A DNA stretch of 21,777 bases, taken from a virus. Position numbers and translations under genes: made by a program. The notes beneath the pieces were generated by a model. It was given only the letters and a program-made list of their open reading frames with translations. It was not told where the DNA came from and did not search any database. The stretch covers positions 1-21,777 of the IMG/VR virus record IMGVR_UViG_3300007555_000042. One strand, written 5' to 3'. Positions within the stretch are counted from its first letter, which is position 1; each line of letters starts with the position of its first letter. Below are positions 2 to 18,911 of the stretch, in pieces.

Positions 2-3000
2 TCTTTATCTATATTTTCAAGATGCACTGGTTCTGAAAATTCAACTGCATTAATGATTGATGTTCAACCTTATGGAGTTGTATCTGGTGATCCATTTACA
101 ACCCAACCAATAATTAAAATTGTCGATTCAAATGGCGATTTAGTTCCAACTGCAACTAATGATGTTGAGGCAGCAATAACGGTTGTTAATGGTTCTGGTT
201 CATTAACAGGAACAACAACAGTAACTGCTGTAGATGGTTATGCAACTTTTACTGATTTAGTTTTTACTGGTGCTGGTTCATTTTATTTGACATTCACCTC
301 AACAGGCTTAACTGAAATAGATTCAGATGAAATTGCAACTTTAACACCTACAGAGTTAGTTGTATATGTTCAACCTATCGCTGGATTGTCAGGCGAATTG
401 TTATTTACCCAACCAACAATTACAATTGCAAATTGGCTTGGTGATTTAGTTCCAGATGCAACAGATGTTGTTGATGTTTCTTTAGTAGATGTAACTGGTT
501 CATCAGTTTTAACAGGAACATTAAACTCAACTGCTTCTGGTGGATATGCAGCATTTACAGATTTAATTGCTACTGGTTACGGATCGTTTTATTTAACCTT
601 TACTTCTGGAACTTTAACATCTGTAAATTCTGATACATTGTTTTTCACTCCTGACCCTGGTAATCCTAATCCCCCAATTCCAGTTAAACCAAAAAGATCA
701 TACACACCTTTATCTGTTCCAACTTCTGGTGATATGGAAACTAATGAATTTGCAATAAATGTTGCAGATAAAAAAGGTTATGTAAGGGATTCAAACGGTA
801 TCATTCATTTAGTTTTTGATGGTAATGCTAGTGGATCTGGTTCAGTTACATCTGTTGGATTGTCTTCAACTAATTCAACTTTAACAATTTCTGATTCTCC
901 TGTTACAACTTCTGGAACAATCAAAATTGATTTGCCAGAAACTGGTGTTTCTGCAAAAGCTTATACTAATGCAGATATTACAATTGATGTTTATGGAAGA
1001 ATTACTGCTGCTTCAGATGGTGCTGGCGTTACATCTATTATTGCTGGAACTGGTGTATCAGTAGATACTGCAACAGGTGATGTTACAGTAACCAACTCTT
1101 TGCCCGATCAAACCGTTTCATTAACCAATGGAACAGCAATTTCTGTAACAGGTACTTATCCAGACTTTACTATTACTAATGATTCTCCAGACCAAATTGT
1201 TACATTGACTGACGGAACAGCAATTTCTGTAACAGGAACATATCCTGATTTTACTATTACTAACTCTTTACCTGATCAAACAGTTACCTTAACTGAAGGT
1301 ACAGATATAACCATTACTGGAACATATCCAGATTTTACCATTGGTTATTCTGGAGTTGCTGGTGGTGTAACTTCGATCATAGCTGGAACTGGAATTAGTG
1401 TAGATGTTGCAACAGGCGATGTTACTGTAACAAATTCTGCACCCGATCAAATTGTTTCAATCACCTCTGGAACTGGTATTAATACTACTGGAATTTATCC
1501 TGACTTTACGATTGATTCAACCATAACTCAATACACGGATTCAGATGCAAGATTGGCATTGTCCGCTGGTACTGGCATAAGTTACGATAATGCAACAGGA
1601 ATTATTACAAATTCAGAACCAGATCAAACGGTTTCATTAACTGACGGAACAGGTATTTCAGTAACTGGAACTTATCCTAGTTTTACTATTGCAACAACCA
1701 TTACTCAATATACAGATTCAGATGCAAGATTATCTTTATCTGCTGGAACTGGAATTTCTTACGATAATGCAACAGGGATAATAACTAATTCTGCTCCTGA
1801 TCAGACTGTTTCTTTAACAGATGGAACTGATATTTCAGTTACTGGAACATATCCTAATTTTACCATTTCATACACAGGGAGTAGTGGTTCTGGAACAGTA
1901 ACATCTGTTGATATGTCTGTACCTGTTGGTTTATTAGTAAGTGGTAATCCAATTACAACAACTGGAACATTATCAGTAACCTTTGATACTGGCTATTCAA
2001 TTCCAACAACAACTTCCCAGACAAATTGGGATACCGCTTATTCAAATTATTTGCAATGGGATGGTGGTTCAACAAGCTTAGTTGCAGCAACTGGTAGAAC
2101 TTCCTTGGGTGCTTCTACTGTAGGCGAAAACCTGTTTACCCTTACTAATCCATCAGCAATAACATTCCCTAGATTTAATGCTGATAATACAGTAACTGCT
2201 TTAAATGATGCTGATTTTAGAACTGCAATTGGTGCTGGAACATCATCAACAACTGGAACAGTTACATCGATATCAACAACCTCCCCAATAACAGGTGGAA
2301 CAATAACTGGAACTGGCACAATCGGAATAAATGCAGCAAGTGCAAATACTGCTTCTTATGTGGTTCAAAGAGATGCTTCTGGAAACTTTTCTGCTGGAAC
2401 TATTACCGCTTCATTGACTGGAACAGCATCAACTGCAACTAATCTTGCAGGTGGCGGTGCTGGTCAAGTTCCTTATCAATCTGCATCTGGTACAACCGCA
2501 ATGCTTTCAGCGGGAACATCAGGTCAAGTTTTAACTTCTTCTGGTACATCTGCACCAACTTGGTCAAATGTAATGCCTTCTGGAACTATAATGCAGTATG
2601 CTGGTGCAACTGCTCCTACAGGTTATTTGATATGTGACGGATCTGCTGTATCTAGAACTACATATGCAACATTATTTGCAGTAACTAGTACAACTTATGG
2701 TGTAGGTAATGGATCTACTACATTTAATTTACCAAATTTACAAAGTAGGCTTCCAATTGGTGCTGGAACTGGTTCTGGTTTAACCCTTAGAACTAGGGGA
2801 ACAACTTACGGAACTGAAACATTTACTTTAGCTTCTGGAAATATACCACAATTAACAAGTGGGAATATGAGTGCAAATGCTAGTCATAGTCACACGCAAT
2901 TAAGGCCTTCATATGTTTATGTTGGTTCGGGTGGTGGTGCTGGTAATGCTGCTGGAACTATAATCCAGACCAGCGATAATGTTAGTGGCCCTCAGATTCA

Positions 3001-3103
3001 ATCTCAAAGTACCGAGCATACTCATTCTGTTGGCAATATCACACCTTCAGCAGTTACCTTTTTACCTCCATCTTTGGCCCTTAACTACATCATTAAAACT
3101 TAG
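2..3103 (+). CDS. Tail fibre protein with Ig-like repeats, tail collar domain and HxH tip (5' partial)
   Basis: The frame is open from the left edge. The ATG at 53 lies inside an Ig-like repeat ('TALMIDVQP' aligns with 'TELVVYVQP' later on), so the real start is upstream of the window. Numbering from that ATG, residues 1-205 hold two roughly 95-residue Ig/invasin-like repeats. Residues 350-605 hold six copies of a 'PDQTVSLTDGT..SVTGTYPDFTI' repeat. A phage tail collar domain follows at about 841-905 ('GTIMQYAG...GYLICDGS...FNLPNLQSRLPIG'). The C-terminus has two HxH pairs (H945/H947 and H989/H991) and ends 'ALNYIIKT'. In T4-type fibres HxH pairs bind metal along the fibre axis. The likely role is a trimeric receptor-binding fibre on the virion; Ig-like repeats in fibres often contact host surface glycans. 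It heads a plus-strand late cluster. Confidence is high for tail fibre and low for receptor. Confidence 0.85.
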   Translation, partial: SLSIFSRCTGSENSTALMIDVQPYGVVSGDPFTTQPIIKIVDSNGDLVPTATNDVEAAITVVNGSGSLTGTTTVTAVDGYATFTDLVFTGAGSFYLTFTSTGLTEIDSDEIATLTPTELVVYVQPIAGLSGELLFTQPTITIANWLGDLVPDATDVVDVSLVDVTGSSVLTGTLNSTASGGYAAFTDLIATGYGSFYLTFTSGTLTSVNSDTLFFTPDPGNPNPPIPVKPKRSYTPLSVPTSGDMETNEFAINVADKKGYVRDSNGIIHLVFDGNASGSGSVTSVGLSSTNSTLTISDSPVTTSGTIKIDLPETGVSAKAYTNADITIDVYGRITAASDGAGVTSIIAGTGVSVDTATGDVTVTNSLPDQTVSLTNGTAISVTGTYPDFTITNDSPDQIVTLTDGTAISVTGTYPDFTITNSLPDQTVTLTEGTDITITGTYPDFTIGYSGVAGGVTSIIAGTGISVDVATGDVTVTNSAPDQIVSITSGTGINTTGIYPDFTIDSTITQYTDSDARLALSAGTGISYDNATGIITNSEPDQTVSLTDGTGISVTGTYPSFTIATTITQYTDSDARLSLSAGTGISYDNATGIITNSAPDQTVSLTDGTDISVTGTYPNFTISYTGSSGSGTVTSVDMSVPVGLLVSGNPITTTGTLSVTFDTGYSIPTTTSQTNWDTAYSNYLQWDGGSTSLVAATGRTSLGASTVGENLFTLTNPSAITFPRFNADNTVTALNDADFRTAIGAGTSSTTGTVTSISTTSPITGGTITGTGTIGINAASANTASYVVQRDASGNFSAGTITASLTGTASTATNLAGGGAGQVPYQSASGTTAMLSAGTSGQVLTSSGTSAPTWSNVMPSGTIMQYAGATAPTGYLICDGSAVSRTTYATLFAVTSTTYGVGNGSTTFNLPNLQSRLPIGAGTGSGLTLRTRGTTYGTETFTLASGNIPQLTSGNMSANASHSHTQLRPSYVYVGSGGGAGNAAGTIIQTSDNVSGPQIQSQSTEHTHSVGNITPSAVTFLPPSLALNYIIKT
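1103..1873 (+). repeat. Tandem repeats in the tail fibre (28- and 59-residue units)
   Basis: The repeat block begins with 'PDQ' at about 1103, 1187, 1271, 1442, 1619 and 1796, so the spacings are 84, 84, 171, 177 and 177 bases. The last two copies form an almost identical 59-codon unit (1520-1696 and 1697-1873) starting 'TITQYTDSDARL'. All spacings are multiples of three, so copy number can change without breaking the frame. This points to fibre length variation by recombination between repeats. Confidence 0.85.
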
Positions 3104-3114
3104 GAGTAAATATC

Positions 3115-3312
3115 ATGGAAATATCTATCATTAATTCTGAAGTTCCTCAAAAAGATACAGATTCTATAATGGGTGTTACTATTTCCGCAAATACTAAAAT
3201 AGGAAAAAGCAACTTGCAACAAGTAGATTTTTTCCCTGATGGTTCACAAATTCAAATTAAGGTTGAAGAACTGAAAACATTGTTAAAAGACTATTTCATT
3301 TCTCAACCGTAA
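3115..3312 (+). CDS. Small hypothetical protein (65 aa)
   Basis: This gene follows the tail fibre after 11 bases. A GGAG Shine-Dalgarno sequence ('taggagtaaatatc') sits about 8 bases before the ATG, and its first two bases belong to the fibre's stop codon, so the two genes are probably co-translated. The product is 65 residues, soluble and mildly amphipathic, with no signal peptide or membrane segment. I do not recognise its family. Genes directly behind a tail fibre are often fibre chaperones or small virion proteins, but nothing in this sequence proves either role. Confidence 0.65.
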   Translation: MEISIINSEVPQKDTDSIMGVTISANTKIGKSNLQQVDFFPDGSQIQIKVEELKTLLKDYFISQP

Positions 3313-3345
3313 ATGTTAAAATGTTTATTTATTGGAGATTAGAAA

Positions 3346-3618
3346 ATGATATTCGCAGACATTAATATCATAGACATTATCGAGCGATTCGGAGTGTCTT
3401 TAAGTTTTCTGGTTTTCCTTTTATGGGCAGTTTACAAGGGGTTTAGTTGGTTGGGTCAAAATATTCTACTTCCCTTGCACCAAAGACATATGGTGTTTAT
3501 AGATAGGCTAGAAAGCTCCATTGGCGAGGTAGCCAAGGCTCAAGCCGAAAGCTTGAGGATTTTGACAGAGGTTTTGAATTACACTAGGACTTTAAAAAAG
3601 GAAGTGAAGCATGATTAA
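3346..3618 (+). CDS. Holin-like small membrane protein (90 aa)
   Basis: One hydrophobic segment at about residues 16-30 ('VSLSFLVFLLWAVYKG') is followed by a charged, heptad-like helical stretch at about 45-85 with a basic tail. A short N-terminus, one membrane segment and a long soluble coiled coil is a common layout for phage holin or lysis-accessory proteins, with the coil in the cytoplasm. A GGAG ribosome site lies about 9 bases before the ATG. The gene overlaps the next one by 8 bases (GCATGATTAA). Its place just before a second protein with a hydrophobic tail and near a peptidase fits a lysis cassette. The holin role is inferred from topology and position only; a membrane-anchored scaffold remains possible. 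Confidence 0.6.
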   Translation: MIFADINIIDIIERFGVSLSFLVFLLWAVYKGFSWLGQNILLPLHQRHMVFIDRLESSIGEVAKAQAESLRILTEVLNYTRTLKKEVKHD

Positions 3619-3928
3619 TTTTCCCAATTCTATGCCTACGGATGCCATGATGTTAGTGGTTGATAAAGTTCGTGGCAAAAAAGATGTAGGCAATAAAGAA
3701 TTTTCTAATGCACTTTGGAACATCGTTGGTTACGCTGCTGACCAAGTTATTCCTGATGATAAACAGATATTTCAAAATGCAGAAGTTTCTCTTGAAGACT
3801 TTGCTGCAATTCTTGAACAAGCAATTCCCCAGGGTGATTTCCACGGAAATCCGATTACAATTGGAATCATCCCTTGGGCAATCGTTCTTAAGACCGCTCT
3901 GAAGTTATTAATCTCTGTTTTTTTATAA
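3611..3928 (+). CDS. Hypothetical protein with hydrophobic C-terminal tail (105 aa)
   Basis: It starts inside the end of the preceding holin-like gene, indicating coupled translation. The first roughly 75 residues are soluble and mixed in charge. The last roughly 24 ('ITIGIIPWAIVLKTALKLLISVFL' region) form a hydrophobic segment that could be a C-terminal membrane anchor. The family is not recognised. Pairing with a one-segment membrane protein suggests a lysis or membrane role, for example a second holin-type component, but there is no diagnostic motif. The HNH reading frame begins immediately downstream. Confidence 0.6.
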   Translation: MINFPNSMPTDAMMLVVDKVRGKKDVGNKEFSNALWNIVGYAADQVIPDDKQIFQNAEVSLEDFAAILEQAIPQGDFHGNPITIGIIPWAIVLKTALKLLISVFL

Positions 3929-3940
3929 TCGGGGATCACA

Positions 3941-4202
3941 ATGGGCCAAGGTAAGAGCAGCACATCTAGAACGGAATCCTAACTGTGCTGCCTGCCTTGA
4001 GGATGATCCCAATTTGCTTCAAGTCCACCATCTGATCCCATTTTGTAAAGATGCATCTTTAGAAATGGAGCCAAAAAATTTACTGTCGCTATGCAGACCT
4101 TGTCATTTTCTTTTTGGTCACGCAAAAAAATGGTCATCAGTAAATGTATACTGTTTGATAGATTCTAAAAACATGGCAGAACGAATAAGGAGCAGGCCGT
4201 GA
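3941..4202 (+). CDS. HNH endonuclease with apparent 1-nt frameshift at its 5' end
   Basis: Read in the frame of 3942, the protein runs 'WAKVRAAHLERNPNCAACLEDD', then 'LLQVHHLIPF', then 'NLLSLCRPCHFLFGH'. These are the CxxC, HH and CxxCH elements of a phage-type HNH nuclease with a zinc ribbon. No ATG, GTG or TTG opens this frame before the CxxC. The ATG at 3941, which has a GGGG ribosome site, is in the wrong frame and stops after 13 codons. Removing one G from the GGG at 3943-3945 would give 'MAKVRAAHLERNP', an ideal N-terminus. So the gene is either broken by a one-base insertion, wrongly assembled, or started unusually. A TTG at 4014 would drop the CxxC and is unlikely to be the real start. 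The gene is a probable homing or packaging-linked nuclease. Confidence 0.7.
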
Positions 4203-4828
4203 TAAACCTTCTTTTTTTAGTGTTTCTTCAAATTCCAACTATAGAGCTTCCCGCAAAGGTTTCTGGTCAACCTGGAGCGTTTATAAGCGTTCCAGCTAAG
4301 ACCGAATCTAAAGCAGTCAAATGGGTTTCAATTGATAAAGGCCTAAACATTTTCCCTGTGGATCTGCTAAAGGACTCCAAGACTCTAGTAGTTACTTCTC
4401 AGATACAAGGTGTGTACAGATTATTTGCTTATGTTGGCAATGAGTTTGGCCCTTCTGAACCAGCGTTTACATCTGTATTGATCGGTGATGAACCCGCTCC
4501 CGCTCCACCAGTAAATCCTGATAACGACATCAGGGCAGCAGCAGCAAAAGAAGACAAAGATCAAGTAAAGTGGTTGTGTATGTTTTACGATGAACTTGCA
4601 AAAGAATGTCAGAAAAACGACTACGAATTTCTTACAGATGTTTTCAAGGCAGCAAAGGCAACCATCAATAAACAATTTATGGAAAACGAGCTTGCCAATC
4701 TTAGAGATGTAATTGGGAAAAGACTCAATGAAAGATTACCTAAAGATGGTACATTGAAACTTGATCAAAAACTTAGGGATCTTTTGACCAGTGAATTTAA
4801 TCAAATAGCAAAGGAACTAAAACAATGA
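4199..4828 (+). CDS. Secreted protein with Ig/PKD-like domain and helical C-terminus (209 aa)
   Basis: The start is a GTG overlapping the HNH stop (GTGA), with AGGAGC about 9 bases upstream. Residues 1-16 are hydrophobic ('MINLLFLVFLQIPTIE') and may be a signal peptide or anchor. Residues about 17-100 look like a beta-sandwich domain ('PAKVSGQPGAFISVPAKT...VYRLFAYVGNEFGPSEPAFTSVLIG'), followed by a Pro-rich linker (APAPPVNP). Residues about 110-209 are helical and charged. From memory this Ig-like stretch resembles proteins seen repeatedly in Planctomycetota, one reason to suspect such a host. The stop overlaps the start of the peptidase gene (ATGA). The function is unknown: it may be a surface, virion or lysis accessory. 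The order suggests it works with the peptidase. Confidence 0.65.
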   Translation: MINLLFLVFLQIPTIELPAKVSGQPGAFISVPAKTESKAVKWVSIDKGLNIFPVDLLKDSKTLVVTSQIQGVYRLFAYVGNEFGPSEPAFTSVLIGDEPAPAPPVNPDNDIRAAAAKEDKDQVKWLCMFYDELAKECQKNDYEFLTDVFKAAKATINKQFMENELANLRDVIGKRLNERLPKDGTLKLDQKLRDLLTSEFNQIAKELKQ

Positions 4829-5799
4829 TTGAATATGTAAAAGTAGGTGGAAAACAGAAATACTTTGGAAAATCAACTCAATGGAATTTTGGTTGGAATC
4901 CAATAGATAGTATTGATGAAAAAAGAAGGCAAGCATTTCTAACCTCATTAGTTAAGTTTGAAATTGAAGGTGATGACTCTCCAGATGTAAAAGAAGCACT
5001 TTTATACAAGGTTGTTAACAAAGCTGCTGGATGCGAGTTTTTCCCTTGGAGTCAGAAAACAGGATCTTGTGTAGGTCACGGTGCGTTAGCAGTAATGGCA
5101 ACGCTTCAAGCGGTTGAAATCGTTACGCAAAATCAATCATATGAAGAATGGAAAATTCCGTTCATCATGTTTAATTATGGGCAATCTCGTAAGCGTGGAG
5201 GATTGCATGGTGTTGGTGAAGGTTCTTTTGGTTCGTCAATGGCTGAGTCATGTAGCCAAGACGGTGTTCCACCTATTGACACTAATCTTCCTCAACCCAT
5301 CAAAGAGAAAGATGGCTCATGGACTTTTGGTTCTAATGTTGAATACAAGTGGAGTAATGGGGATGCACCTCCAGTAGATTTATTTGAAGTATCAAATAGG
5401 TTTAAAGTCCAAACAACAAGTAAACTTGAGAACTCTGAAGAGGTTAAGAAGGCCTTGAGGAATGGGTATCCTGTTACAATCGCTTCTGGATGGTGGGGTT
5501 TTAGAGATTTGAAAGTTCAAGCCAAAGGTACTCCAGCAGTACAATTGGCTTCAAAAAGCGATTCTTGGGGGCATCAACAGGCTTGTTTGGGCTTTACTAC
5601 TCATCCTGACTTTGGGGTTATATATTTGATTCAAAACTCTTGGGGCAACGCTCACGGAACTCCCCCAGGGAATTACGGAGAGCCATTGGGTTCTTATTGG
5701 ATTTCAGAAAAAGATATGAATCGCATTTGCACAGAAGAAGTTTTTGCGTATAGTAACTTTAATGGCTATCCAGCCAGAGTGATCGATTGGACTCTTTAG
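4825..5799 (+). CDS. Papain-fold (C1-like) cysteine peptidase
   Basis: The 324-residue protein has the catalytic layout of papain-family peptidases. 'WSQKTGSCVGHGA' supplies an upstream glutamine (Q77) and the nucleophile C82, 'SWGHQQACLGF' supplies H250, and 'LIQNSWGNAHG' supplies N271 in the family's NSWG signature. There is no obvious signal peptide or prodomain; about 70 residues precede the catalytic region. It overlaps the upstream secreted-protein gene by four bases (ATGA). Possible roles are virion maturation cleavage, cleavage of cell-wall or surface protein during entry or lysis, or attack on host proteins. A protein-rich planctomycete envelope would be a plausible target. The fold call is secure; substrate and location are inferred. 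Confidence 0.85.
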   Translation: MIEYVKVGGKQKYFGKSTQWNFGWNPIDSIDEKRRQAFLTSLVKFEIEGDDSPDVKEALLYKVVNKAAGCEFFPWSQKTGSCVGHGALAVMATLQAVEIVTQNQSYEEWKIPFIMFNYGQSRKRGGLHGVGEGSFGSSMAESCSQDGVPPIDTNLPQPIKEKDGSWTFGSNVEYKWSNGDAPPVDLFEVSNRFKVQTTSKLENSEEVKKALRNGYPVTIASGWWGFRDLKVQAKGTPAVQLASKSDSWGHQQACLGFTTHPDFGVIYLIQNSWGNAHGTPPGNYGEPLGSYWISEKDMNRICTEEVFAYSNFNGYPARVIDWTL

Positions 5800-7564: not shown

Positions 7565-10500
7565 ATGTATAAACCTAGTGCAGTATCAGCTTCACCAGAT
7601 CATTATGTTGATGGTCAAATAAAAGATAATTTTGAAGCAAGTGTTCCATTAAATTGGATTGGCAAAAATAATGTTACTTCAAATAAAGTTATATGGTATG
7701 ACCAAATAGATGAATCTTTTTTAATAAATGTAAGAATTACCCCAAACGAAAATTACATTTGGGAAGAATCAGATTTAACACAAACTTCAGTACCAACCGT
7801 TTATCAGGTAGATGGAACTGCTGGAACAGTTTCTCAATTTAATTTAAAAAAAATAACTGAAGAATATTGTAACCCACCAACCTCTGTGTATTCATATTAC
7901 CAATCTACAAATATTCCTTTTCAATATGACGAAACACTTATAAGGGAACAATCAAACATATATCATTACGATGTTTTTGAAGGAGTTAAAAAAACTGCTT
8001 GGCCAAACTTTAGTGATTATAGTGGAGCTTACCCAACAGGAATAAGTTCTTGGAGCGAAGCATATACTAATGTTGATTATATTCACCAGCCTTCTTTTTA
8101 CAACTATAACTATTACAATTATTATTACATGAATGGTTACAACCTTTTGTTTGATTCGTCAATAACAGGTACGATGCCAACCATTTTAGAAGACTATTTA
8201 CAACCATGCTCATTAGACCCCAGCATCCCATCGTATTTTCCATCTGGATCTATAATTCCAGAATGGCCACAACAAGGAGGTGGTTTTAATAACACATCGT
8301 ATTCTGGATACAAAATTTGCGGAGCATCTTTTAATGGGAACAATTTAATATTAAGAGTCCACAGTTTTTCTCAAACTGCACTTATTGGGTCAGAAGGTGT
8401 TATCAATATTCCGGTTACATTAAGTTCAATAAAAATACCTTCCAATTATTCTTATTGGCCTTGGCTAAATGATAATGACAATTTTTATATTTACGACAAT
8501 AAAATTTTATTTCCATCCATGTATGACATAGCTAGCGGACAAAATATTTATTATGGATCTTATTACCCATTTTTGCCAGAAAAAAAAGCTTGCATTTGTT
8601 TTACACAAAAAAACCCATTGGTAGAATCAACATCTGGGTTTAATACATTCACTTATAAAAATGTAGTAATATACGACAGAACATCTAGAAGCCAAGCCAT
8701 TATGGTAGAAGACCTTCCAAGAAGTCCTTATTTTTCCGGCAAGAACCTTGTTTGGTTTGCTGGAGCGGTTTGTGTTGACATTCAAATATCATTTAAAAAG
8801 AAAAATTTTCCAGAAATTTCTAGCATACCAAACATAAGTATTCCAAGGACATTCGCTGTTGTTCCAGAAGATATAAGGCCATTATCATACAGAGATGTTT
8901 ACAAATTAGATAGTGGCTGGTATGCATATAAATCTTTAACAAATGAAGAAGCAAGGGTACTGGTTGATCATTATCAAACAGAATACGGTTCTAGTACTAC
9001 TTTAAAATATTCTTCTAATGGATATGCTGTTTCAAACAGCAATTACAATTACCTGTATAATCAAAATACATTTGTAGTGTATGAACCAAACTATCCAGCA
9101 TTAAAACAGCCTGTGTTTCAAACATTTGGTGACCTTGAATCAGGTTTTATAAAAAACAAATCTGATGACTATTATTATTATTATTATTACAACTCAACAA
9201 GAGATATAAACAATATCCCAGATCCATTTAATTTATATTATTATTACAACTTTTATTATTACGACCAAAAGTCTTTTATTAATTCTGGAACGATTCCTTT
9301 TGCTTCTAACGAGTCTGTGACAGGAAATCTAAATTTCACTATGCTTAACATATATAATGCAAATTATGATTATTATTATTATTACAATATGGTTAAGCTT
9401 GGCACAAGTTTGTCTATGACTGTAAATATTCCACAAATTACTGTAGATCCTACTAAATATTATCAGATGTATGTAAACACATTAGGCATTAGCCCAACAC
9501 AAGAGTATGTTGGTGTTGAATTAATTCCTCCAAGATTTGGAGAAAAAGGTTTTGGTGACGGATGGTTTGGTTTAGCGATCAACCAACTTTCTATACCAAA
9601 TCCGTCTAATGGAAGATTAACTCAATTTGCTGGGTCTTTTTATGTAGCTGATCCTAATGGAAATATTCTTAGATATTATAACCCAAACACAGATTATATA
9701 ACCCCAACTACTGTTTTTGATGGAAACATGGAGGCATCATTTCTTGGAAACTATTATACTTCTTCGTATACATCTATACCAACAGGTGGATATGCATATA
9801 AATATTGGTTTTATAATGGAAACTCTACTGTAAATGCCTTGGATTATGTTTTAAACACTTCTAATCCATCAAGAGGGATAAAGCCATTTGGAACTTATTA
9901 TCAAGGTAGCCCAAACAATGAAGGTGGTTACTGTGAAGATGGAATATATTTAGTAATTGGACAATCGTATATTGACCAGATTCAACCTCTTCCAGGTTAT
10001 TATAACAATACAAATCAAGCTGCACCTCGTGCAATGTACCCTATTGGTGCATTCTATATTGAAACAACTGATAACCAGTTTTTAATATATGATGTTCCAC
10101 TTTACTATGTTCCAGATTTAGATTTAACTAAGCCATATTATGGTTGCCTTAATGCCAGTTACCAAATTTTAATAACATCCGTACCTAACACACTTAATTC
10201 ATCAAACATTTTTAATTATAATTCTAGTTACGCAGGGAAACCAAAAATAGTTGTTTCATCACAGTATGTTGACAATTATGAAAGTCTGATTGAAATTTAT
10301 GGGCCTGATACAACTCAATTAGTTCTTGATGAAGACTATGAAGTTTTGCCATATTCATCACAAAGGCCAGGGTGTTATGTAATATCGTTTTTAAAAACGC
10401 TAGGCAATCTATTTGAAAACGAATATACAGATAACCCACCATCTCTTGCTGATGGAAATTACAAAATAATTCTGCCAACTATAACAAACAAAACTATGAG

Positions 10501-10942
10501 CAGTCTTTCATATGTTGACAACATGACTAGCGTTTCAAATACTGGTTATAATTATAGCGTTTATTACAATTATTATTTTTTCTCTGAATTTTATATTATG
10601 AATTTTAATTCATTTTATAACAATGGTTTTAATCCATATTATTACAATTATGTAGATCAGTTCATGCCTAGAGCAAGAACTAACGACCCTCAATATTTTG
10701 GCTACAATGCCCGATTTTCTGACTCTGAAGTTATAAGTTTAAGTCCAATTAGATTCAGAATTAAGAATTGTATATTCACAGGAACTAATACAGATGATCC
10801 TGACAATCCTTATGAAATCGGTTTTAAATGTGATTTCACCTTCACAGAGTATCTTGAAGAAGATGAGTTACCAGCGAACCCTAATAGTTACAATCAGCTT
10901 TTAGAAGGAATTGATTTTGTTGAGGCTGATACAGATTATTAA
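7565..10942 (+). CDS. Very large Tyr/Asn-rich putative virion surface protein (1125 aa)
   Basis: An AGGTG site overlaps the previous stop region and lies about 4 bases before the ATG. The product is beta-rich, soluble and exceptional for tyrosine. Runs such as seven consecutive Tyr at 9170-9190, 'LYYYYNFYYYD' near 9233, 'DYYYYYN' near 9368 and 'NPYYYNYVD' near 10633 interrupt otherwise ordinary sequence. I recognise no domain. Few Cys, no signal peptide and a position beside a tail-associated protein suggest a large tail or surface adhesion protein. Tyr/Asn-rich loops are typical of carbohydrate-binding and hypervariable receptor-binding surfaces. The tandem TAT codons look like slippage products that keep the frame. 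Structure prediction would be informative. The structural role is inferred from context. Confidence 0.6.
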   Translation: MYKPSAVSASPDHYVDGQIKDNFEASVPLNWIGKNNVTSNKVIWYDQIDESFLINVRITPNENYIWEESDLTQTSVPTVYQVDGTAGTVSQFNLKKITEEYCNPPTSVYSYYQSTNIPFQYDETLIREQSNIYHYDVFEGVKKTAWPNFSDYSGAYPTGISSWSEAYTNVDYIHQPSFYNYNYYNYYYMNGYNLLFDSSITGTMPTILEDYLQPCSLDPSIPSYFPSGSIIPEWPQQGGGFNNTSYSGYKICGASFNGNNLILRVHSFSQTALIGSEGVINIPVTLSSIKIPSNYSYWPWLNDNDNFYIYDNKILFPSMYDIASGQNIYYGSYYPFLPEKKACICFTQKNPLVESTSGFNTFTYKNVVIYDRTSRSQAIMVEDLPRSPYFSGKNLVWFAGAVCVDIQISFKKKNFPEISSIPNISIPRTFAVVPEDIRPLSYRDVYKLDSGWYAYKSLTNEEARVLVDHYQTEYGSSTTLKYSSNGYAVSNSNYNYLYNQNTFVVYEPNYPALKQPVFQTFGDLESGFIKNKSDDYYYYYYYNSTRDINNIPDPFNLYYYYNFYYYDQKSFINSGTIPFASNESVTGNLNFTMLNIYNANYDYYYYYNMVKLGTSLSMTVNIPQITVDPTKYYQMYVNTLGISPTQEYVGVELIPPRFGEKGFGDGWFGLAINQLSIPNPSNGRLTQFAGSFYVADPNGNILRYYNPNTDYITPTTVFDGNMEASFLGNYYTSSYTSIPTGGYAYKYWFYNGNSTVNALDYVLNTSNPSRGIKPFGTYYQGSPNNEGGYCEDGIYLVIGQSYIDQIQPLPGYYNNTNQAAPRAMYPIGAFYIETTDNQFLIYDVPLYYVPDLDLTKPYYGCLNASYQILITSVPNTLNSSNIFNYNSSYAGKPKIVVSSQYVDNYESLIEIYGPDTTQLVLDEDYEVLPYSSQRPGCYVISFLKTLGNLFENEYTDNPPSLADGNYKIILPTITNKTMSSLSYVDNMTSVSNTGYNYSVYYNYYFFSEFYIMNFNSFYNNGFNPYYYNYVDQFMPRARTNDPQYFGYNARFSDSEVISLSPIRFRIKNCIFTGTNTDDPDNPYEIGFKCDFTFTEYLEEDELPANPNSYNQLLEGIDFVEADTDY
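9170..9385 (+). repeat. In-frame TAT/TAC triplet runs encoding poly-Tyr
   Basis: Three clear runs lie here: six TAT plus TAC then AAC at 9170-9193, two short runs at 9236-9265, and four TAT plus TAC then AAT at 9371-9388. Related '(TAT)n TAC AAY' runs occur near 8101-8128, 10563-10577 and 10636-10650. They look like trinucleotide microsatellites within a coding region. Confidence 0.75.
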
Positions 10943-12593: not shown

Positions 12594-13929
12594 TTCCGTT
12601 GCTAATGGTGCAAGAAAAGTTCTAGTTCGATCCGCACACAATCAAGGCAAAACTTTTTTGTGTGCTGTTATTGCTTCATGGTTTCACGATCACTTTACTC
12701 CATCAGAAGTTTTGATATCAGCACCTGTTGCTCAGCAGATCAAAGATGGTGTATTCAAAGAATTACGCAGGGTTAGACCAAGAGATCCAAATTGGATGCC
12801 CAAGGCTAATCGTCTTGAAAAGAACCCCTCGCATTACATACAAGGTTTAACCGCTCAGAAGGCTGATGCTTTCCAAGGACGGCACTCCGCTGGTGGTTTG
12901 TGCATTCTGTTTGACGAAGCATCTGGTATTGAACCAACCTTCTGGGAACGAGCAGAATCGATGCTTTCAGCAAGCAAAGAGAATTGTTTATGGTTCTGCA
13001 TTTTCAATCCATATGATGCATCATCACCCGCCTATTTTGCTGAGAATTCACCTGATTGGAAAGTGTTCCACCTGTCTGCTTTAGATCATCCTAATGTGGC
13101 TTTTAAAGCTGATCTTGTGCCAGGGGCAATCAACTATGAGTATGTAGAGAACCGCATCAAAAACGAATGCAGAACCGCTAGAGAAGGTGAAGAATCTGAA
13201 CCAGGGTTCTTTACCTTCAATGATCGAAACTACATGGTTGAAGACCCGCTGTTTGATATTCAAGTTCTTGGAAGATACCCCAGTAAAGCGATCAACTCGG
13301 TATGGGGTGCTTTGCCCCTCAAACAAATCCTTGACCCAATTCCCCTTAACAAGGATTGGGTGGTTCAGATTGGTGCTGACCCTGCAAGGTTTGGTGACGA
13401 TAGATCCTGTTTAGTGGTCAGGCATGGATGTTGCATCATAGATGCAAAGGAGTATCGTGGTTTGTCTACAAAAGAATTCTCGGAAAAGATTAAAGAGTAT
13501 TGCCAGAAGTACGAAACTCCAAGGCAGTCTCAATTCAAAATCCCTGTGCTTATTGATGAGGGTGGTGTTGGTGGCGGTGTAGTCGATAACAAGGGTGACT
13601 ATATGTTTTACGGCATTAATTCGTCTGGTGAAGCACCAAGGTGGCGAGAGTTTCCAAACATGAGATCCGCACTCTGGTTTGAAGCAGCAGAACTTGCGAT
13701 GGAAGGCAAAGTTTCAATCGGACATCTTCCGCTGCATATGCGTGAAAGGATGATGGAAGAGTTACGCACACCAGTATACATTGTAGATACAAACGGCAGA
13801 AGAGTGGTCGAGTCTAAGGACATGATGAAGCGTAGACTCAAGCACTCTCCTGACCTTGCAGATGCTTTTAACTTAGCTCTGATGTCGATCCCTCGGATTG
13901 GGATTGAGAAGGTGATTGGTCATTTATAA
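12373..13929 (+). CDS. terL: Terminase large subunit (packaging ATPase-nuclease)
   Basis: Start chosen at the ATG pair 12373/12376, with AAGGA 5-8 bases upstream; an in-frame TTG at 12349 is an alternative. The N-terminal ATPase has Walker A 'SAHNQGKT' at about residues 87-94 and Walker B 'CILFDEA' with D181/E182. The C-terminal RNase H-like nuclease shows acidic residues in 'GADPARFGDD' (about D336), 'LIDEGGVGGG' (about D395) and 'PDLADAFNLAL' (about D494/D497). The length (about 518) is typical and no residue is missing. The protein translocates phage DNA into proheads and cuts it. Its start lies deep inside the small terminase frame, and its 3' end overlaps the convergent primase gene by 62 bases. 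Confidence 0.93.
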   Translation: MMSKNSKNSSTNNLQKRWQKALSSPALQGKLSEIQEIKRVNRENQKTIVIPKDPGEYCEYLGITLTPQQMEIFDSVANGARKVLVRSAHNQGKTFLCAVIASWFHDHFTPSEVLISAPVAQQIKDGVFKELRRVRPRDPNWMPKANRLEKNPSHYIQGLTAQKADAFQGRHSAGGLCILFDEASGIEPTFWERAESMLSASKENCLWFCIFNPYDASSPAYFAENSPDWKVFHLSALDHPNVAFKADLVPGAINYEYVENRIKNECRTAREGEESEPGFFTFNDRNYMVEDPLFDIQVLGRYPSKAINSVWGALPLKQILDPIPLNKDWVVQIGADPARFGDDRSCLVVRHGCCIIDAKEYRGLSTKEFSEKIKEYCQKYETPRQSQFKIPVLIDEGGVGGGVVDNKGDYMFYGINSSGEAPRWREFPNMRSALWFEAAELAMEGKVSIGHLPLHMRERMMEELRTPVYIVDTNGRRVVESKDMMKRRLKHSPDLADAFNLALMSIPRIGIEKVIGHL

Positions 13930-16345
13930 CGATGTACATTGATCCAGCACCATTCGCATCTCTGCTTTTCCTGATTGAAATTTCACCGCAATCTTGAAGG
14001 TATCGGATTGCATCATCAACGCTTTGCCCGCTGTGTACGATCTTCCTGAGATGCCTTTTCGCATCAATCATCTTTACACCATATATATCTGGTTCAATTT
14101 CGTTTAGTGAATCCTTGATCATGTTTAATAGTTTGTCTGTAATTTCACCAAACTTTGTATCGCTTACCATAACTGTATTTGCGGTCTGTCTTTTATTAAC
14201 TTCACGAACAAATTTAAATCCAGAGGTAACTCCAGCTAGCGAAATTGTGTCAGCGTTTATGTCCTGACTTAATTCCCACAGGCAAGCTATTTTCAGAGCT
14301 AACTCAGGAAGTCTAGCACATGAAGAAGCCTTTTCTTCTTCGCTGTTCTTCTGGTACTTGGAATACAGATCATCGTTTTCCCACACCTGAGTTTGAAAGA
14401 ATTCTAACGCATCTTCATCAAGTAAAAGAATTTTTGAATCCCTTTCAATCTGATTTAGTGGAGCATTTCCAAGTGCATCAAGTTTAGTATCTGCCATGAA
14501 TTCCTTGATCACTCCAGGCACAAGATTTTCATTCATGGCAATCAATCGTGCAGCAACTTCAACTAGGTATTCTGGAATTGGTTCTGATACTGACATACCC
14601 CGAAGATTCATTCTGCCTCGAATTGCAGATTGTAAAATCAGCAACCTATTGTAAAAACCTGACCGAAGCATCTTAGGTGATAGTGCCTTAAAATATTCTT
14701 CTGGGGTTGATGAAGTCATAATGGAAAGGAATGGGTAGCGAATAAAGTTTTCTGAGTCCGCATCACCCGCTTTAGCTCGCCTCTTAATATAGTTTGATGT
14801 GAACAGTTCTAGCATTGTTCCCATTACATCGTTGAACCTTGTGTCACCTGACTTTGCTTTCTCAAGATCAAATGCACCTTCATCAGCCATCAAGAATTTC
14901 GGGCCTTGAATCACCTTCTCTTCAAGCCCTTCACGGCTACCAACTTTCGTCATCAACAAGCTTGCGTTATCAATTTCCATACAGATTCTAGCGTTTAATT
15001 TTCGCGGGAAATCTTTGCCCGAAGCTGTCAAACCAAGCACAACAATGTATAAATTAAGCTTTAGTTCATTCGGCCCCATGATGGATCTTCCCACTAGGGC
15101 AGAAAACATCCCTAGTGCAGATGCAGCAGCAATTCGCTTTTCTGGGTATAGTGCGTTTCTCATGCAGTAGTCAATGTAAGTGTCGATCCACCCAGGAAAT
15201 GAAATCGCATCGTCAGGCACAATGTCTACAGTTCTGACCTGTTTAACCTTACCTGACTTTGTTGTTTCAAGGAAATCCCATCTAGTTTCGTTCACAGGCT
15301 CATCTTCAATTTTGTCTATTGAATACTTAGCAAATACCTGTGCGTAAAATGTTTTCCACTCCCTGCTCCCTGGTTGCCACCCTCGGCTCATACAATAAAC
15401 ATAATCTTTGGTTAATGGAATGTTTGGACTCAATCGCCAATCTAATGGACTGAAATTCCAATAGCGATCCATGCCACCATTTTTGCACCCTGCAATAGCG
15501 TTAGGTTCTCTGCCTGATGAATCAGGATGCCACACCATGAAGTAATCATGCCTGACCTCAACTACTCGGTAAGAATCTGGAAGAATTTCGGGCCAAGAAG
15601 TTTCTGCTCGCCATTGATCCAACGCAGTCTTTTTGCCTATCTCTTTATACTGATAAGGTTCCTTGTTTAGCTCGATGAATCTCTTTGCTGCTTTTTGATC
15701 ATACGACTGAGCAAATGACATGAGGAATTCATGTTCATCCGCAGTAAGCATTGGAATGGTTGCAACATCTCCATGAATCATTTTATATGGCTTAACCAAT
15801 CCATCAATCTTTGAGACTGCCTGAGAATAGAAACCAACTACATATCCACCCGCCCCCCTTGTTTCAATCAATGGTGGAGCAATCTTTTTGGTCGATCCTT
15901 TGGCTTTAGCTTCGGCTAACCACTTCTTACCGTTATCAGTAGACATTACCGCTAATTCACGGCACTTTGATTTACCTAGTGGCAAATAGTAGAAAATGTG
16001 CAATCCTTCAGATGGGGTGGTTTCTACGCACCCACAGAGTTTGTCGTGTAGTTCTTTGCTGGTTGCTTCTAGGTCAGGCAAGAAGTCAATCGCCACTTTA
16101 GGGCAATCAATATCAAGGCATTCTAAGTCCTTTTCCTGACCCACAACTGGGCCACAGTTGATTGCTATCCCTGCTACATTTGCGTGACTAAAATCTATCT
16201 CAATTTCAAGGTCTGATAGTGGGTTTGATCTAAGCTCCACTATACGGTTGGTTCTCTTAATTACTGGGGTTTTATCGACCTTAGTAGAAAAAACTGATAA
16301 CCCATGTCCACGAACACGCAAAGCCTGTTTCTTTATTTCGTCCAA
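13868..16345 (-). CDS. Primase-polymerase / helicase fusion (825 aa)
   Basis: The only possible start is TTG at 16345, since a stop codon lies in frame 24 bases upstream; AGGTG is 4 bases before it. Residues about 35-175 match the bifunctional primase-polymerase domain: 'LDID' (D78, D80), 'GLHIFYY' (H116) and 'IETRGAGGYVVG' (161-171). A C-terminal P-loop helicase-like region has 'GLTASGKD' (438-445, Walker A with Asp in place of Ser/Thr) and 'KFLMADEG' (D488/E489). This layout resembles DUF3987-type phage primase-helicases that prime and unwind DNA at the fork. It is the last gene of the minus-strand replication operon, after the RadD-like helicase. The tail is low in complexity (Ser/Gln-rich), and its last 20 codons overlap the terminase 3' end. 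Confidence 0.85.
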   Translation of the reverse strand: MDEIKKQALRVRGHGLSVFSTKVDKTPVIKRTNRIVELRSNPLSDLEIEIDFSHANVAGIAINCGPVVGQEKDLECLDIDCPKVAIDFLPDLEATSKELHDKLCGCVETTPSEGLHIFYYLPLGKSKCRELAVMSTDNGKKWLAEAKAKGSTKKIAPPLIETRGAGGYVVGFYSQAVSKIDGLVKPYKMIHGDVATIPMLTADEHEFLMSFAQSYDQKAAKRFIELNKEPYQYKEIGKKTALDQWRAETSWPEILPDSYRVVEVRHDYFMVWHPDSSGREPNAIAGCKNGGMDRYWNFSPLDWRLSPNIPLTKDYVYCMSRGWQPGSREWKTFYAQVFAKYSIDKIEDEPVNETRWDFLETTKSGKVKQVRTVDIVPDDAISFPGWIDTYIDYCMRNALYPEKRIAAASALGMFSALVGRSIMGPNELKLNLYIVVLGLTASGKDFPRKLNARICMEIDNASLLMTKVGSREGLEEKVIQGPKFLMADEGAFDLEKAKSGDTRFNDVMGTMLELFTSNYIKRRAKAGDADSENFIRYPFLSIMTSSTPEEYFKALSPKMLRSGFYNRLLILQSAIRGRMNLRGMSVSEPIPEYLVEVAARLIAMNENLVPGVIKEFMADTKLDALGNAPLNQIERDSKILLLDEDALEFFQTQVWENDDLYSKYQKNSEEEKASSCARLPELALKIACLWELSQDINADTISLAGVTSGFKFVREVNKRQTANTVMVSDTKFGEITDKLLNMIKDSLNEIEPDIYGVKMIDAKRHLRKIVHSGQSVDDAIRYLQDCGEISIRKSRDANGAGSMYIVINDQSPSQSQSEGSTSELS

Positions 16346-16430: not shown

Positions 16431-18911
16431 TCACCCTTTCGCCATTCCCCCGCTTATTACTCTAGTACTTTGAAATTGGTAACTATCGATGTGATAGTAC
16501 CCCTTTTCATTTATGTGTGCCTTTATGGCAATTGGTTTCGGGATCGTATCTAACCACTCTTGGATTTGCAAGCTTTCTTTATTCATATTCCAATGCTTGT
16601 CTGGTAAACCTTTTGCACCAACAGACTTAAGCCATTTCCAAACTATAAATTCTAATCCATGCTTTAATGAGTGATAGCATCTGATTAGCTTACCTTCAAG
16701 CGTTTCGTGTGTTTCGAGTATGCAAGGATCTGATGCTGGAGTTTTACGATAGATCGTGTATCCGGTAGCAACTATTTCATATTGCTTTGGTTGCCTTCCC
16801 GCAAGAATTTCACCATTGGTTTGGCTTGCAGAAAGTTTCTCTGGAAACAAAGATTCTTCTTCTTTTGGTTTGAAATAACCGCATGAAGGGCAAATGATAT
16901 TGCCAACCCTGTGTATGAGATTGCATGAAGGGCAACGCTTTACTTTAGCTGCTGGAAGTTCAATGCCTTGGGCATCAACTACGATCTGATCGATGCAACC
17001 ATGCCTGAGAGCGTTGTCACCAAAATCAAGTATCAAACAGTTCTCTTTATCTGGAGCAAGGCGAAATCCCCGCCCAACCATCTGATACCACAACCCCTTC
17101 GACATGGTTGGTCGCATCACCACAACGCAATCAATTCCAGGGGCATCAAAACCAGTTGTCAAGACAGCTACATTTACTAACCATTTAAAACTGTTAGCCC
17201 GAAATCCATTAATCAAAAAGTCTCTAATCGTTGAATGCGTTTCGCCTGTTATCATGTTTGCCGATTGGCCCTGCTTCTTTAATTCATTAAGAATCATTTC
17301 AGCGTGTTTAATCGATGAGGCAAACACCAATACAGATTTTCTTGAAGATGCTTTTACGATTGCCTCTTTAACGCTGGATTGAACAAGATCAGCGTTTTCA
17401 AGAATCGCATCAAGATCCTTAGAAAAGTATTCACCCGCTCTGATTCTGACATTCTTTAGATCAGGAGAATCACTTGTACCCATTGTTACTAACGGAGAAA
17501 GAAATCCTTCGTCAATCAAATCTCGCACTCCAATTGCGTAGCAGCAATTATCAAAAGTCTTTTCTTTATGACCAAAGATGATTCCGCTCTGAAGTCGATA
17601 TGGGGTTGCAGTTAAGCCAACAACTTTTACTCTAGAGTTTGAAATCTTTGCCTGAGACAGAAACTTTCGGTACATGGTTTCTTTGTTCTGGCTAATGAGA
17701 TGGCAATTATGTACTGCTACCCCATCAGCAAAGTAAGAAGGATGTCCGCTGACTTGAATGTTGAATACAAGGACAGGGCTTTTTCGTTTTTTACACGATA
17801 CACCGACCACCCTAATCCCGCCAAAAACTTCATTTTCTTCTGATCCTTTTCTTTCCTCTCTAGTGAACCGTGGCTTCCCCCATCCAGTTCGATTGCAATC
17901 ATTTTCTCTTTGTTCCCAATGTCCACCTTGTAACAATTTGGATACATTCCGTTTAGATGCCCCGCATGAGTGATTATCGCAAGCTCCGCTTTCCATCCAT
18001 CCCCTAGTGCGTGTAACAATGCTAGTTGAGCCAAGGGAAGCAATTGCCCGTTCCCGCCTCTTTGTATAGGTTTGTGTTTCATCTCTTTCAGTTTGTCGCT
18101 TATTTTTTTCCTTGCTGCTTTGTTCAACGATGTTGGGGAAAATTTCTTCGCACACGCAACTGAGCAAAATTTCTGCTTTTTCCAAAGGGATTCTTGTAGC
18201 GTGGATTTTATCTTCCCATTTTCCAGATACTTCACCCAAGGACAGAACACTTTCCCACAACATACGCATATCTTGGATTCCAAAAAGACCCGATCCGTTC
18301 TCCAACTCCTTGGCTGCACACCATCCTCTTTCGGTAAAGAACCTGTGGTTCCCTGTGCATTCAATTTTTTTTCCATTACTAAGCTCCACTATATATGTCT
18401 CTGGTGCTGGTTTACAAGATACGGCTTCAACCGTTCCAACACCGCATTGATTGAATACTAAGTCACCGCACCTCACCTTGTCAATAGGGATTTCTCCTTT
18501 TGGAGTAGATATCATTGTTCCAGCCACAAAGCATTCGTCAATCATAATGAAATCCAGATAACCAAAGTCAGCACCCTTTCTGTACACACTTTGAATCCCT
18601 GCAATCGTCAAAGGTTTTACTTCTCTGCGTTTTAATGCAGCAGAATAAACCCCGATTGATTCAACAGGTAAGCCAGTAGTAGTTGCATAGTGTGTACAAG
18701 TTTTGTTGGATTGCTCAAGCAATTCTTTTACATGAGACAGAATCATTCCCCTGCAATTTGGGTTCGCCTCGAATGACCTTCTAATTATCTCGGCCATGAC
18801 TCTAGTTTTCCCGCCACCAGTTGGAATGACGATTACTGATGATTGCCCAGGGCGATCATGCTGAAATTCAAATAGTGAATTCACAGCATCTTGTTGATAC
18901 TTGCGTAGCAT
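16431..18911 (-). CDS. RadD-like SF2 DNA helicase interrupted by an intein
   Basis: The start overlaps the previous stop (TAATG), with GGGAG upstream. The extein (about 550 residues after splicing) follows the RadD/YejH layout: Walker A 'PTGGGKT' (30-36), 'LSHVKELLEQ', 'IQSV', motif II split as DE|CH, 'GLTATP' (432-437), 'VLTTGFDAPGID' (motif V) and 'QMVGRGFRLAP' (motif VI). A four-Cys zinc finger 'CPSC...CPSC' lies at 660-677. An extra C-terminal domain of about 125 residues is not recognised. RadD-type helicases act in recombination and double-strand break repair, so this probably serves phage replication and recombination. The intein occupies residues 127-402 inside motif II, so the enzyme should be inactive until spliced. 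Confidence 0.9.
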   Translation of the reverse strand: MLRKYQQDAVNSLFEFQHDRPGQSSVIVIPTGGGKTRVMAEIIRRSFEANPNCRGMILSHVKELLEQSNKTCTHYATTTGLPVESIGVYSAALKRREVKPLTIAGIQSVYRKGADFGYLDFIMIDECFVAGTMISTPKGEIPIDKVRCGDLVFNQCGVGTVEAVSCKPAPETYIVELSNGKKIECTGNHRFFTERGWCAAKELENGSGLFGIQDMRMLWESVLSLGEVSGKWEDKIHATRIPLEKAEILLSCVCEEIFPNIVEQSSKEKNKRQTERDETQTYTKRRERAIASLGSTSIVTRTRGWMESGACDNHSCGASKRNVSKLLQGGHWEQRENDCNRTGWGKPRFTREERKGSEENEVFGGIRVVGVSCKKRKSPVLVFNIQVSGHPSYFADGVAVHNCHLISQNKETMYRKFLSQAKISNSRVKVVGLTATPYRLQSGIIFGHKEKTFDNCCYAIGVRDLIDEGFLSPLVTMGTSDSPDLKNVRIRAGEYFSKDLDAILENADLVQSSVKEAIVKASSRKSVLVFASSIKHAEMILNELKKQGQSANMITGETHSTIRDFLINGFRANSFKWLVNVAVLTTGFDAPGIDCVVVMRPTMSKGLWYQMVGRGFRLAPDKENCLILDFGDNALRHGCIDQIVVDAQGIELPAAKVKRCPSCNLIHRVGNIICPSCGYFKPKEEESLFPEKLSASQTNGEILAGRQPKQYEIVATGYTIYRKTPASDPCILETHETLEGKLIRCYHSLKHGLEFIVWKWLKSVGAKGLPDKHWNMNKESLQIQEWLDTIPKPIAIKAHINEKGYYHIDSYQFQSTRVISGGMAKG
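17717..18376 (-). CDS. Nested out-of-frame homing endonuclease (zinc finger + Vsr/DUF559-like PD-(D/E)XK)
   Basis: This 219-codon ORF lies wholly inside the intein, on the same strand, shifted by one base from the helicase-intein frame. Its ATG has GGAG 7 bases upstream. Residues 37-40 and 71-75 give a C-x2-C ... C-x3-C zinc site ('CVCCGKVF', 'FCSVAC'). A basic helical linker (about 85-105) follows. The nuclease core at about 145-196 has 'YKVDIG' (D152), 'IAIELDGGSH' (E163, D165, H169), 'EKDQKK' (D178) and 'LGWSVYRVKN', the pattern of Vsr/DUF559-type folds used by EDxHD-type homing enzymes. It would cut intein-less alleles of the helicase gene. The 3' end overlaps splicing block F; the 5' end overlaps block B. 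Activity is inferred. Confidence 0.82.
   Translation of the reverse strand: MEKKLNAQGTTGSLPKEDGVQPRSWRTDRVFLESKICVCCGKVFCPWVKYLENGKIKSTLQESLWKKQKFCSVACAKKFSPTSLNKAARKKISDKLKEMKHKPIQRGGNGQLLPLAQLALLHALGDGWKAELAIITHAGHLNGMYPNCYKVDIGNKEKMIAIELDGGSHGSLERKEKDQKKMKFLAGLGWSVYRVKNEKALSLYSTFKSADILLTLLMG
18377..18387 (-). promoter_or_regulatory. Internal ribosome binding site for the nested nuclease
   Basis: On the minus strand GGAG (18387-18384) precedes the nested ATG (18376) by 7 bases, within codons of the intein frame. It argues that the nuclease is translated independently from the shared mRNA. Confidence 0.6.

Follow-up and report, generated by a model that had tools for sequence, protein, structure and literature searches.

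An intein of a viral RadD-like helicase that contains, in another reading frame, a gene for a putative homing endonuclease

Must the endonuclease of a mobile intein be part of the intein protein, or can it be a separate gene written on the same DNA? In the usual description of inteins, a homing nuclease is fused in frame to the splicing domain; the question is raised by a viral stretch of 21,777 nucleotides (IMG/VR record IMGVR_UViG_3300007555_000042, positions 1 to 21,777; hereafter the window), in which an intein interrupts a RadD-like helicase and itself contains an open reading frame (ORF) for a nuclease-like protein. The helicase and intein together form one uninterrupted ORF on the minus strand (18911-16431). 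The 276-residue intein starts with CFVAGT and ends with VAVHN, followed by the Cys at +1, and it splits helicase motif II as IDE/CHLIS, a site abbreviated below as DE/CH. The helicase matches Pfam ResIII and Helicase_C, and NCBIfam heli_RadD_YejH with an E value of 6.4e-84, yet below the cutoff of that family. The nested ORF is intact and begins with an ATG 535 nt downstream of the helicase start, i.e. in the +1 frame. A first-pass annotation, made from the letters of the window alone, had described a complete 219-codon ORF on the same strand and out of frame in the intein, with a GGAG site of its own, and it was correct on all of these points. We consider it very probable that this is a mobile intein whose nuclease is a separate overlapping gene, made from an internal start and homing to DE/CH. 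In the mechanism we propose, the homing endonuclease gene would overlap the intein instead of forming an in-frame domain; the helicase-intein frame would yield a self-splicing precursor, the intein acting as a mini-intein whose long linker is disordered; ribosomes would also start at the internal, Shine-Dalgarno-matched ATG and read the +1 frame into a free-standing zinc-finger and EDxHD/Vsr-like nuclease; and this nuclease would cut intein-less helicase alleles at the DE/CH codons, after which repair would copy the whole intein in.

The same layout recurs in diverse phages. A tblastn search with the nested protein matched 54-55 phage records, from which 11 regions were taken, plus L071 (loci are designated by L and a number). 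In 7 of the 11 regions the nuclease lies on the same strand inside an intein-bearing helicase-like ORF, always at +1 and never annotated (five Vibrio phages, Pseudomonas phage MR14 and Corynebacterium phage phi673, the last being locus L013); two others are antisense and two lie in no intein ORF seen. With a profile search we obtained 42 viral-contig and 14 genome-contig loci: 34 of the former have the nested same-strand layout (four of these lie on contigs known from a previous search), two are antisense in an intein-bearing ORF and six are in no visible intein ORF, while four of the latter are nested and ten are not. The search of plasmids gave 13 records, mostly annotated DUF559 genes, with a best E value of 7e-5. 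Removal of repeats left 45 same-strand nested loci, and the nuclease is at +1 in 45/45. The 43 inteins with both ends found by our script all lie at DE/C or DE/S; L025 is cut at one end, and one end of L029 was missed by the script yet is visible. These 43 loci form 33 clusters at 95% identity (the representatives used below), L025 joining L022 (99.6%) and L029 standing alone (66%), which makes 34 clusters. Most host genes are superfamily 2 helicases; L044 has a DE/SSILK helicase, L046 an ATPase that resembles clamp loaders, and L047 a methylase/helicase ORF of 2404 codons that is truncated by the ends of the locus. The nuclease ORF extends 7-91 nt beyond the intein end in L026, L029 and L058-L060. 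Far from being broken by stops in homologous inteins, the nested frame is intact. Because the layout is kept in 45/45 same-strand loci and the stop test described below is extreme, we conclude that it is conserved beyond chance.

The Hint ends evolve as intein codons and the middle of the intein evolves as nuclease codons. Intein codon position 1 is nuclease codon position 3, and in 14 pairs of sequences the differences at intein codon positions 1/2/3 numbered 115/88/286 in blocks A-B, 443/190/146 in the linker, where the nuclease overlaps, and 26/20/50 in blocks F-G. These pairs share sequences; in the 9 pairs that do not, the counts were 35/13/92 in blocks A-B versus 166/51/36 in the overlap (chi-squared p 2e-24). 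We also classed substitutions by their effect in the linker frame (first letter) and the nuclease frame (second letter), N standing for nonsynonymous and S for synonymous, with class rates based on a fixed transition weight of 3 and uncorrected for multiple hits. The nonsynonymous/synonymous ratio of the nuclease frame was 0.37 (NN/NS) and 0.15 (SN/SS), and that of the linker frame 1.65 (NN/SN) and 0.67 (NS/SS, with few SS). By these ratios the linker amino acids look nearly free and the nuclease constrained. Comparison of constraint frame by frame, which the first-pass annotation had proposed as a check, thus found the nuclease frame under purifying selection in mid-intein, and the nuclease was more identical than the linker in 496/496 pairs of 32 representatives. 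The linker frame was nevertheless kept open: intein-frame stops numbered zero in 33/33 representatives, versus about 268 predicted in sum by synonymous shuffling of nuclease codons. Stops were about as frequent as predicted, with no avoidance, in 18 related ORFs outside inteins, which we called intein-free since none of them is covered by an ORF of the same strand that has a block G motif; five controls of the stop test were scanned, four scoring above the DUF559 cutoff and L068, whose end is overlapped by a long ORF, just below it. Because the nuclease frame is constrained and the linker frame has zero stops, we conclude that both frames are maintained, the nuclease for its protein sequence and the linker for the read-through that a splicing precursor needs.

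The nested protein matches Pfam DUF559 with an E value of 6.2e-07 and 29.7 bits (gathering score 20.6), and a DUF559 match was found in 28/28 nested nucleases. The first-pass annotation had read it as a zinc finger plus a Vsr/DUF559-like core, and the five core residues that it named (D152, E163, D165, H169 and D178) proved invariant among 28 aligned nested nucleases, as did the zinc-finger residues C37, C40 and C75, with C71 nearly so. A strict catalytic-motif search was positive in 29/33 representatives and missed L013, L039, L044 and L057, of which L044 and L057 do carry the catalytic residues in the alignment. The nuclease similarity that the first reading had anticipated was found by both profile and structure comparison: a profile of the 28 nested proteins finds 3hrl (E 1.9e-07) and 3r3p, which is the homing enzyme I-Bth0305I (E 0.014), and the nuclease model, with a mean predicted local distance difference test (pLDDT) of 80.8, gave fold-comparison Z scores of 9.0 with 3hrl, 8.9 with 3r3p and 8.1 with Vsr (1cw0). 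By its residues and predicted fold, the nuclease belongs with the EDxHD/Vsr-like enzymes. We took as chance the similarity of the nested protein to NCBIfam colicin_Z, which scored 18 bits versus a cutoff of 300 (E 0.0018). GC-rich genes do carry long alternative-frame ORFs by chance, as in Cane17, and the nested ORF could in principle be spurious or the remains of an old in-frame nuclease that was frameshifted out; given the purifying selection on the nuclease frame, the substitution pattern, the stop counts, the invariant catalytic residues and the presence of DUF559 throughout nested nucleases of diverse phages, we rejected this explanation as scarcely credible.

The intein itself has the residues of a class 1 intein, with C1, TGNH, HN and C+1 all present in the window, and C1 in 33/33, TxxH in 31/33, HN in 32/33 and C or S at +1 in 33/33 representatives. 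Its Pfam Intein_splicing score of 32.8 bits is under the cutoff of 35.8, and of the NCBIfam models intein_Cterm is above cutoff and intein_Nterm just below. The structural model is confident at residues 1-90 and about 240-276, with pLDDT <50 across most of residues 102-237, and Foldseek matched it, with E values from 3e-7 to 1e-5, to two inteins (gp41-1 and DnaB) and to an intein-like domain from bacteria, i.e. to the Hint fold. An intein of this kind would be expected to splice. The Pfam profile scan of the window intein found no nuclease family match in the linker read in the helicase frame, and a sub-threshold match to Cdh1_DBD_1 (E 0.0013) was taken as chance. The earlier statement that the in-frame linker lacks an endonuclease motif therefore holds, as does its reading of the element as a mini-intein in function. 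A canonical intein with its nuclease in frame was rejected, given the lack of an in-frame match, the very low confidence of the linker model and the +1 position of the nuclease in 45/45 loci, and a group I or II intron was rejected since Rfam gave no match at E ≤ 1 on either strand of 17400-18800.

How would such a nuclease be translated? Defining a Shine-Dalgarno match as at least 4 bases matching TAAGGAGGTGA, we found that the first nested ATG follows such a match in 30/33 representatives, versus 77/511 other intein ATGs. The first ATG is at intein nucleotide 157 in 16/33 representatives (in L019 the second ATG is there), where conserved intein codons give both the ATG and, mostly, GGAG or GAGG; in L006, L008, L010, L011, L037, L040 and L041 an ATG at nucleotides 262-274 follows the GAGGT of DEV codons, and the start arrangement varies in the remaining representatives. 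The Shine-Dalgarno-matched first ATG of most representatives points to internal initiation of the nuclease, in which case the nested frame would be translated and two proteins would be made. Promoter-like sites number 4 in the stretch versus 2.3 expected, so there is no evidence for a promoter of the nested gene. The nuclease might instead be produced as a fusion protein, with a programmed frameshift close to block B joining an N-terminal piece of the intein to the nuclease frame. The common +1 frame in 45/45 loci is what a frameshift needs, although shared descent predicts likewise, and L019, L021 and L057 leave more room upstream of the ATG, but in 14 representatives a nuclease-frame stop lies 1-5 codons upstream of it (the frame opens at nucleotides 142-154, the ATG being at 157), and in L010, L037, L040 and L041 the frame opens at the ATG or one codon before it, leaving little room. 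Together with the Shine-Dalgarno match of most representatives, this makes a frameshifted fusion very unlikely.

Evidence for mobility comes from close relatives of the window helicase. This set held 55 loci, of which L121, L122, L123 and L131 were excluded as their match stops short of the intein junction, leaving 51 (L089 and L090 being one contig). Read across the site, the intein is present in 4 and the other 47 are empty. The four inteins (L078, L097, L098 and L100) are 99.4-100% identical to that of the window. L078 matches the window at every position compared and could be the same virus; the exteins of the other three are 87.0-92.6% (N) and 86.6-88.6% (C) identical to those of the window, and for each of these three the C-extein has a closer counterpart (91-95%) among the empty alleles than in the window (25 empty alleles compared). 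Recent transfer is evident because near-identical inteins lie in diverged exteins and empty sites are found among close relatives, a combination that reads as the signature of recent homing. The first-pass annotation had noticed neither this signature nor the antisense geometry described below. The nested nuclease could still be active in another role, such as excluding competing phages or cutting host DNA, the intein spreading by ordinary recombination: the DUF559 fold is not specific to homing, related nuclease ORFs occur outside inteins, and the cleavage target of the nested nuclease is only inferred. We think this unlikely, however, since the near-identical tract coincides with the intein in diverged exteins and empty alleles exist in close relatives, since the nested loci occupy inteins at DE/C or DE/S, and since both profile and fold resemble I-Bth0305I. 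Mini-inteins in which we found no nuclease occur at the same DE/C site in Vibrio phages 13VV501A, K453, K459 and 268E42.1; nuclease-bearing and nuclease-free inteins therefore share one site. The helicase of 13VV501A (L072, 2652-5153) has two mini-inteins, at the P-loop and at DE/C, and a 212-codon antisense ORF across the L072 mini-intein had no Pfam match. The L039 helicase (2404-5301) also seems to have two inteins, one at the P-loop (VHN/SGKTE) and one at DE/C, the latter holding the nested nuclease.

Several observations weigh against a homing nuclease made from an internal start, or at least against parts of that reading. Hint identity correlates about equally with that of the C-extein (0.65) and the nuclease (0.60; 496 pairs), so these correlations do not show long-term joint travel of intein and nuclease, and the stop test gives no significant result for L060 by itself (P0 0.27). 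The nuclease model has a predicted template modelling score of 0.48; mitoribosomal proteins, with Z scores of 8.9 and 8.5, are level with I-Bth0305I, and Z scores of 7-8 are common for unrelated models; Foldseek gave the nuclease model no match at E ≤ 0.001 (I-Bth0305I 0.018). L039 lacks an early ATG with a Shine-Dalgarno match, some of the matches counted are weak (GTGA at the first ATG of L019, L027 and L035), and the control ATGs were unmatched for codon context, the signal coinciding in part with conserved intein codons. In the window subfamily the nested frame overlaps block B over its first ~30 codons, which seem not to be conserved, and the exact start in the window is therefore uncertain, being either the ATG at 18376 or a later TTG. 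Finally, while the architecture is well established, the biochemistry (expression, splicing, and cleavage of the element-lacking allele at its presumed target) is what we infer from sequence.

Compared with canonical homing-endonuclease inteins (LAGLIDADG between blocks B and F, as in the Cane17 portal), the window intein is alike in its Class-1-like Hint blocks, its insertion in a conserved motif, a nuclease coded between blocks B and F and its mobility pattern, but their nuclease is in frame whereas that of the window is a separate +1-frame gene and the linker has no nuclease match. The Cane17 intein was considered as a nested case and rejected, its nuclease being a canonical LAGLIDADG in frame. 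In the work of Dassa and colleagues of 2009, EDxHD/Vsr-like enzymes reportedly occur in fractured genes with split inteins. Such genes resemble the window in nuclease family, in affecting phage replication genes and in having their own nuclease gene within the intein, but there the nuclease separates the halves, whereas the window nuclease overlaps an uninterrupted intein ORF whose splicing would be in cis. The window was not assigned to this type, as the helicase-intein ORF is unbroken and there are not two ORFs with a nuclease between them. A fractured gene is present in Salmonella phage UTK0003 (L077, 2814-5540), where the two halves of uvsW, one with IntN and the other with IntC, flank an ORF with weak TnsA-like/NUMOD3 similarity.

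I-Bth0305I is not known to overlap a second coding frame. This EDxHD enzyme (PDB 3r3p, 'mobile intron protein'; PMC3943268) is like the window nuclease in catalytic-domain fold and motif but is intron-borne and has other DNA-binding parts. Closer in layout are ShiLan and Pacc40 (Arsenault et al., 2025; PMC11855218), which are out-of-frame HNH insertions with no recognisable intein or intron, the ribosome-binding site of the ShiLan insertion being not detectable. They share with the window a stop-free host frame, a hidden homing-type nuclease in another frame and a disjunct distribution, but are HNH without an intein, whereas the window has an intein, a DUF559/EDxHD nuclease and a Shine-Dalgarno match; a ShiLan-type insertion was rejected for the window since an intein is present and the nuclease is DUF559, not HNH. 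Among the matches listed in a search of titles and abstract beginnings of open-licence PubMed Central papers, there was no intein with an out-of-frame endonuclease. The first-pass statement that no well-described class has this layout stands in that no intein case surfaced there, but needs amending in that out-of-frame HNH genes without an intein had been published. PMC11855218 cites, for overlapping frames, a preprint of the same group on a 'non-canonical architecture' of actinophage inteins (Gosselin, 2025; 10.1101/2025.01.02.630785), which may overlap or pre-empt our finding.

A second geometry was seen in Vibrio phages 1.266.O, 1.082.O and 1.265.O and in the metagenomic contigs L049 and L054, where an ORF that bears an intein contains a DUF559 ORF running antisense to it. 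Compared with Phage_Mu_F, the host ORF is just above cutoff in L014 and below it in L071 and L054, and that of L049 had no match. The antisense codons are in register (by script for L014, L016, L049 and L054, by coordinates for L071), and an intein-frame stop would therefore require the nuclease to use TTA, CTA or TCA. These three codons are absent from the 245 codons of L014 and the 247 of L071 (P ~2e-9 and 2e-8 by background usage); for L049 the avoidance is weak (0.02), and for L054, against a mixed-ORF background, it lacks significance (0.13). Between L014 and L071, the nuclease frame is only moderately the better conserved of the two frames in the overlap (0.62 vs 0.50; differences 76/37/69). 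The L054 intein starts without a clear Cys or Ser, and the ORF that bears it includes a NUDIX domain (Pfam E 5.9e-12). Of the viral-contig scans with antisense nucleases, two were without matches and two gave known loci plus L134 and L135.

Taking the +1 geometry at DE/C or DE/S (helicases, clamp-loader-like ATPase, methylase/helicase) together with the codon-register antisense geometry in MuF-like head genes, it is likely that these loci form a distinct class of mobile inteins that is widespread and divides splicing and homing between two separate proteins encoded by the same DNA segment. Such a class would be a stable alternative to inteins with an in-frame nuclease and to fractured genes with split inteins, and possibly an intermediate between the two. 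A separate gene would free the nuclease from the splicing reaction, and the layout offers a route to split inteins, as closure of the linker frame would leave a fractured gene. It is also a natural case of dual-frame constraint over ~150-260 codons in DNA phages. Genome annotation and surveys of inteins tend to consider a single frame, and a nuclease gene may lie hidden in other inteins whose linker is long and unconserved.

Table 1. Coordinates of the features discussed. Positions refer to the window unless a locus is named.
Feature	Position	Strand	Support
Nested ORF, 219 aa, zinc-finger and DUF559/Vsr-like (EDxHD) nuclease, +1 relative to the intein	17717..18376	-	
Intein (276 aa) at DE/CH of helicase motif II	17706..18533	-	Pfam/NCBIfam intein matches; Foldseek inteins/Hint
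Hint N-terminal part: block A with C1, block B TGNH	18264..18533	-	Block-mean pLDDT 88-97
Intein linker, residues 102-237, overlapping the nuclease core of the other frame	17823..18230	-	Mostly pLDDT <50
Hint C-terminal part: blocks F and G, HN then C+1	17706..17816	-	
CxxC...CxxxC zinc-finger-like region, nested residues 37-75	18152..18268	-	Cys conservation; weak eL24/zf-FCS resemblance
DUF559 match, nested residues 149-201, holding D152, E163, D165, H169 and D178	17774..17932	-	
GGAG Shine-Dalgarno match, 7 nt 5' of the nested ATG	18384..18387	-	
Promoter-like TTGACA-18-TAGTAT upstream of the nested ATG, weak	18455..18484	-	
N-extein of the RadD-like helicase, 126 aa	18534..18911	-	
C-extein of the RadD-like helicase	16431..17705	-	
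Antisense DUF559 ORFs in intein-bearing ORFs	L014 3086-5209; L016 3083-5209; L071 3602-5695; L049 3185-5050; L054 251-5056		

Elsewhere in the window, a protein with a Prim-Pol domain (13868-16345; Pfam E 5.8e-06) adjoins the helicase on the same strand. A 1125-residue protein very rich in Tyr/Asn runs (7565-10942) had no Pfam match at E 0.001, and a tail collar protein encoded at 53-3103 contains many repeat units of the DQTVSLTDGT type.

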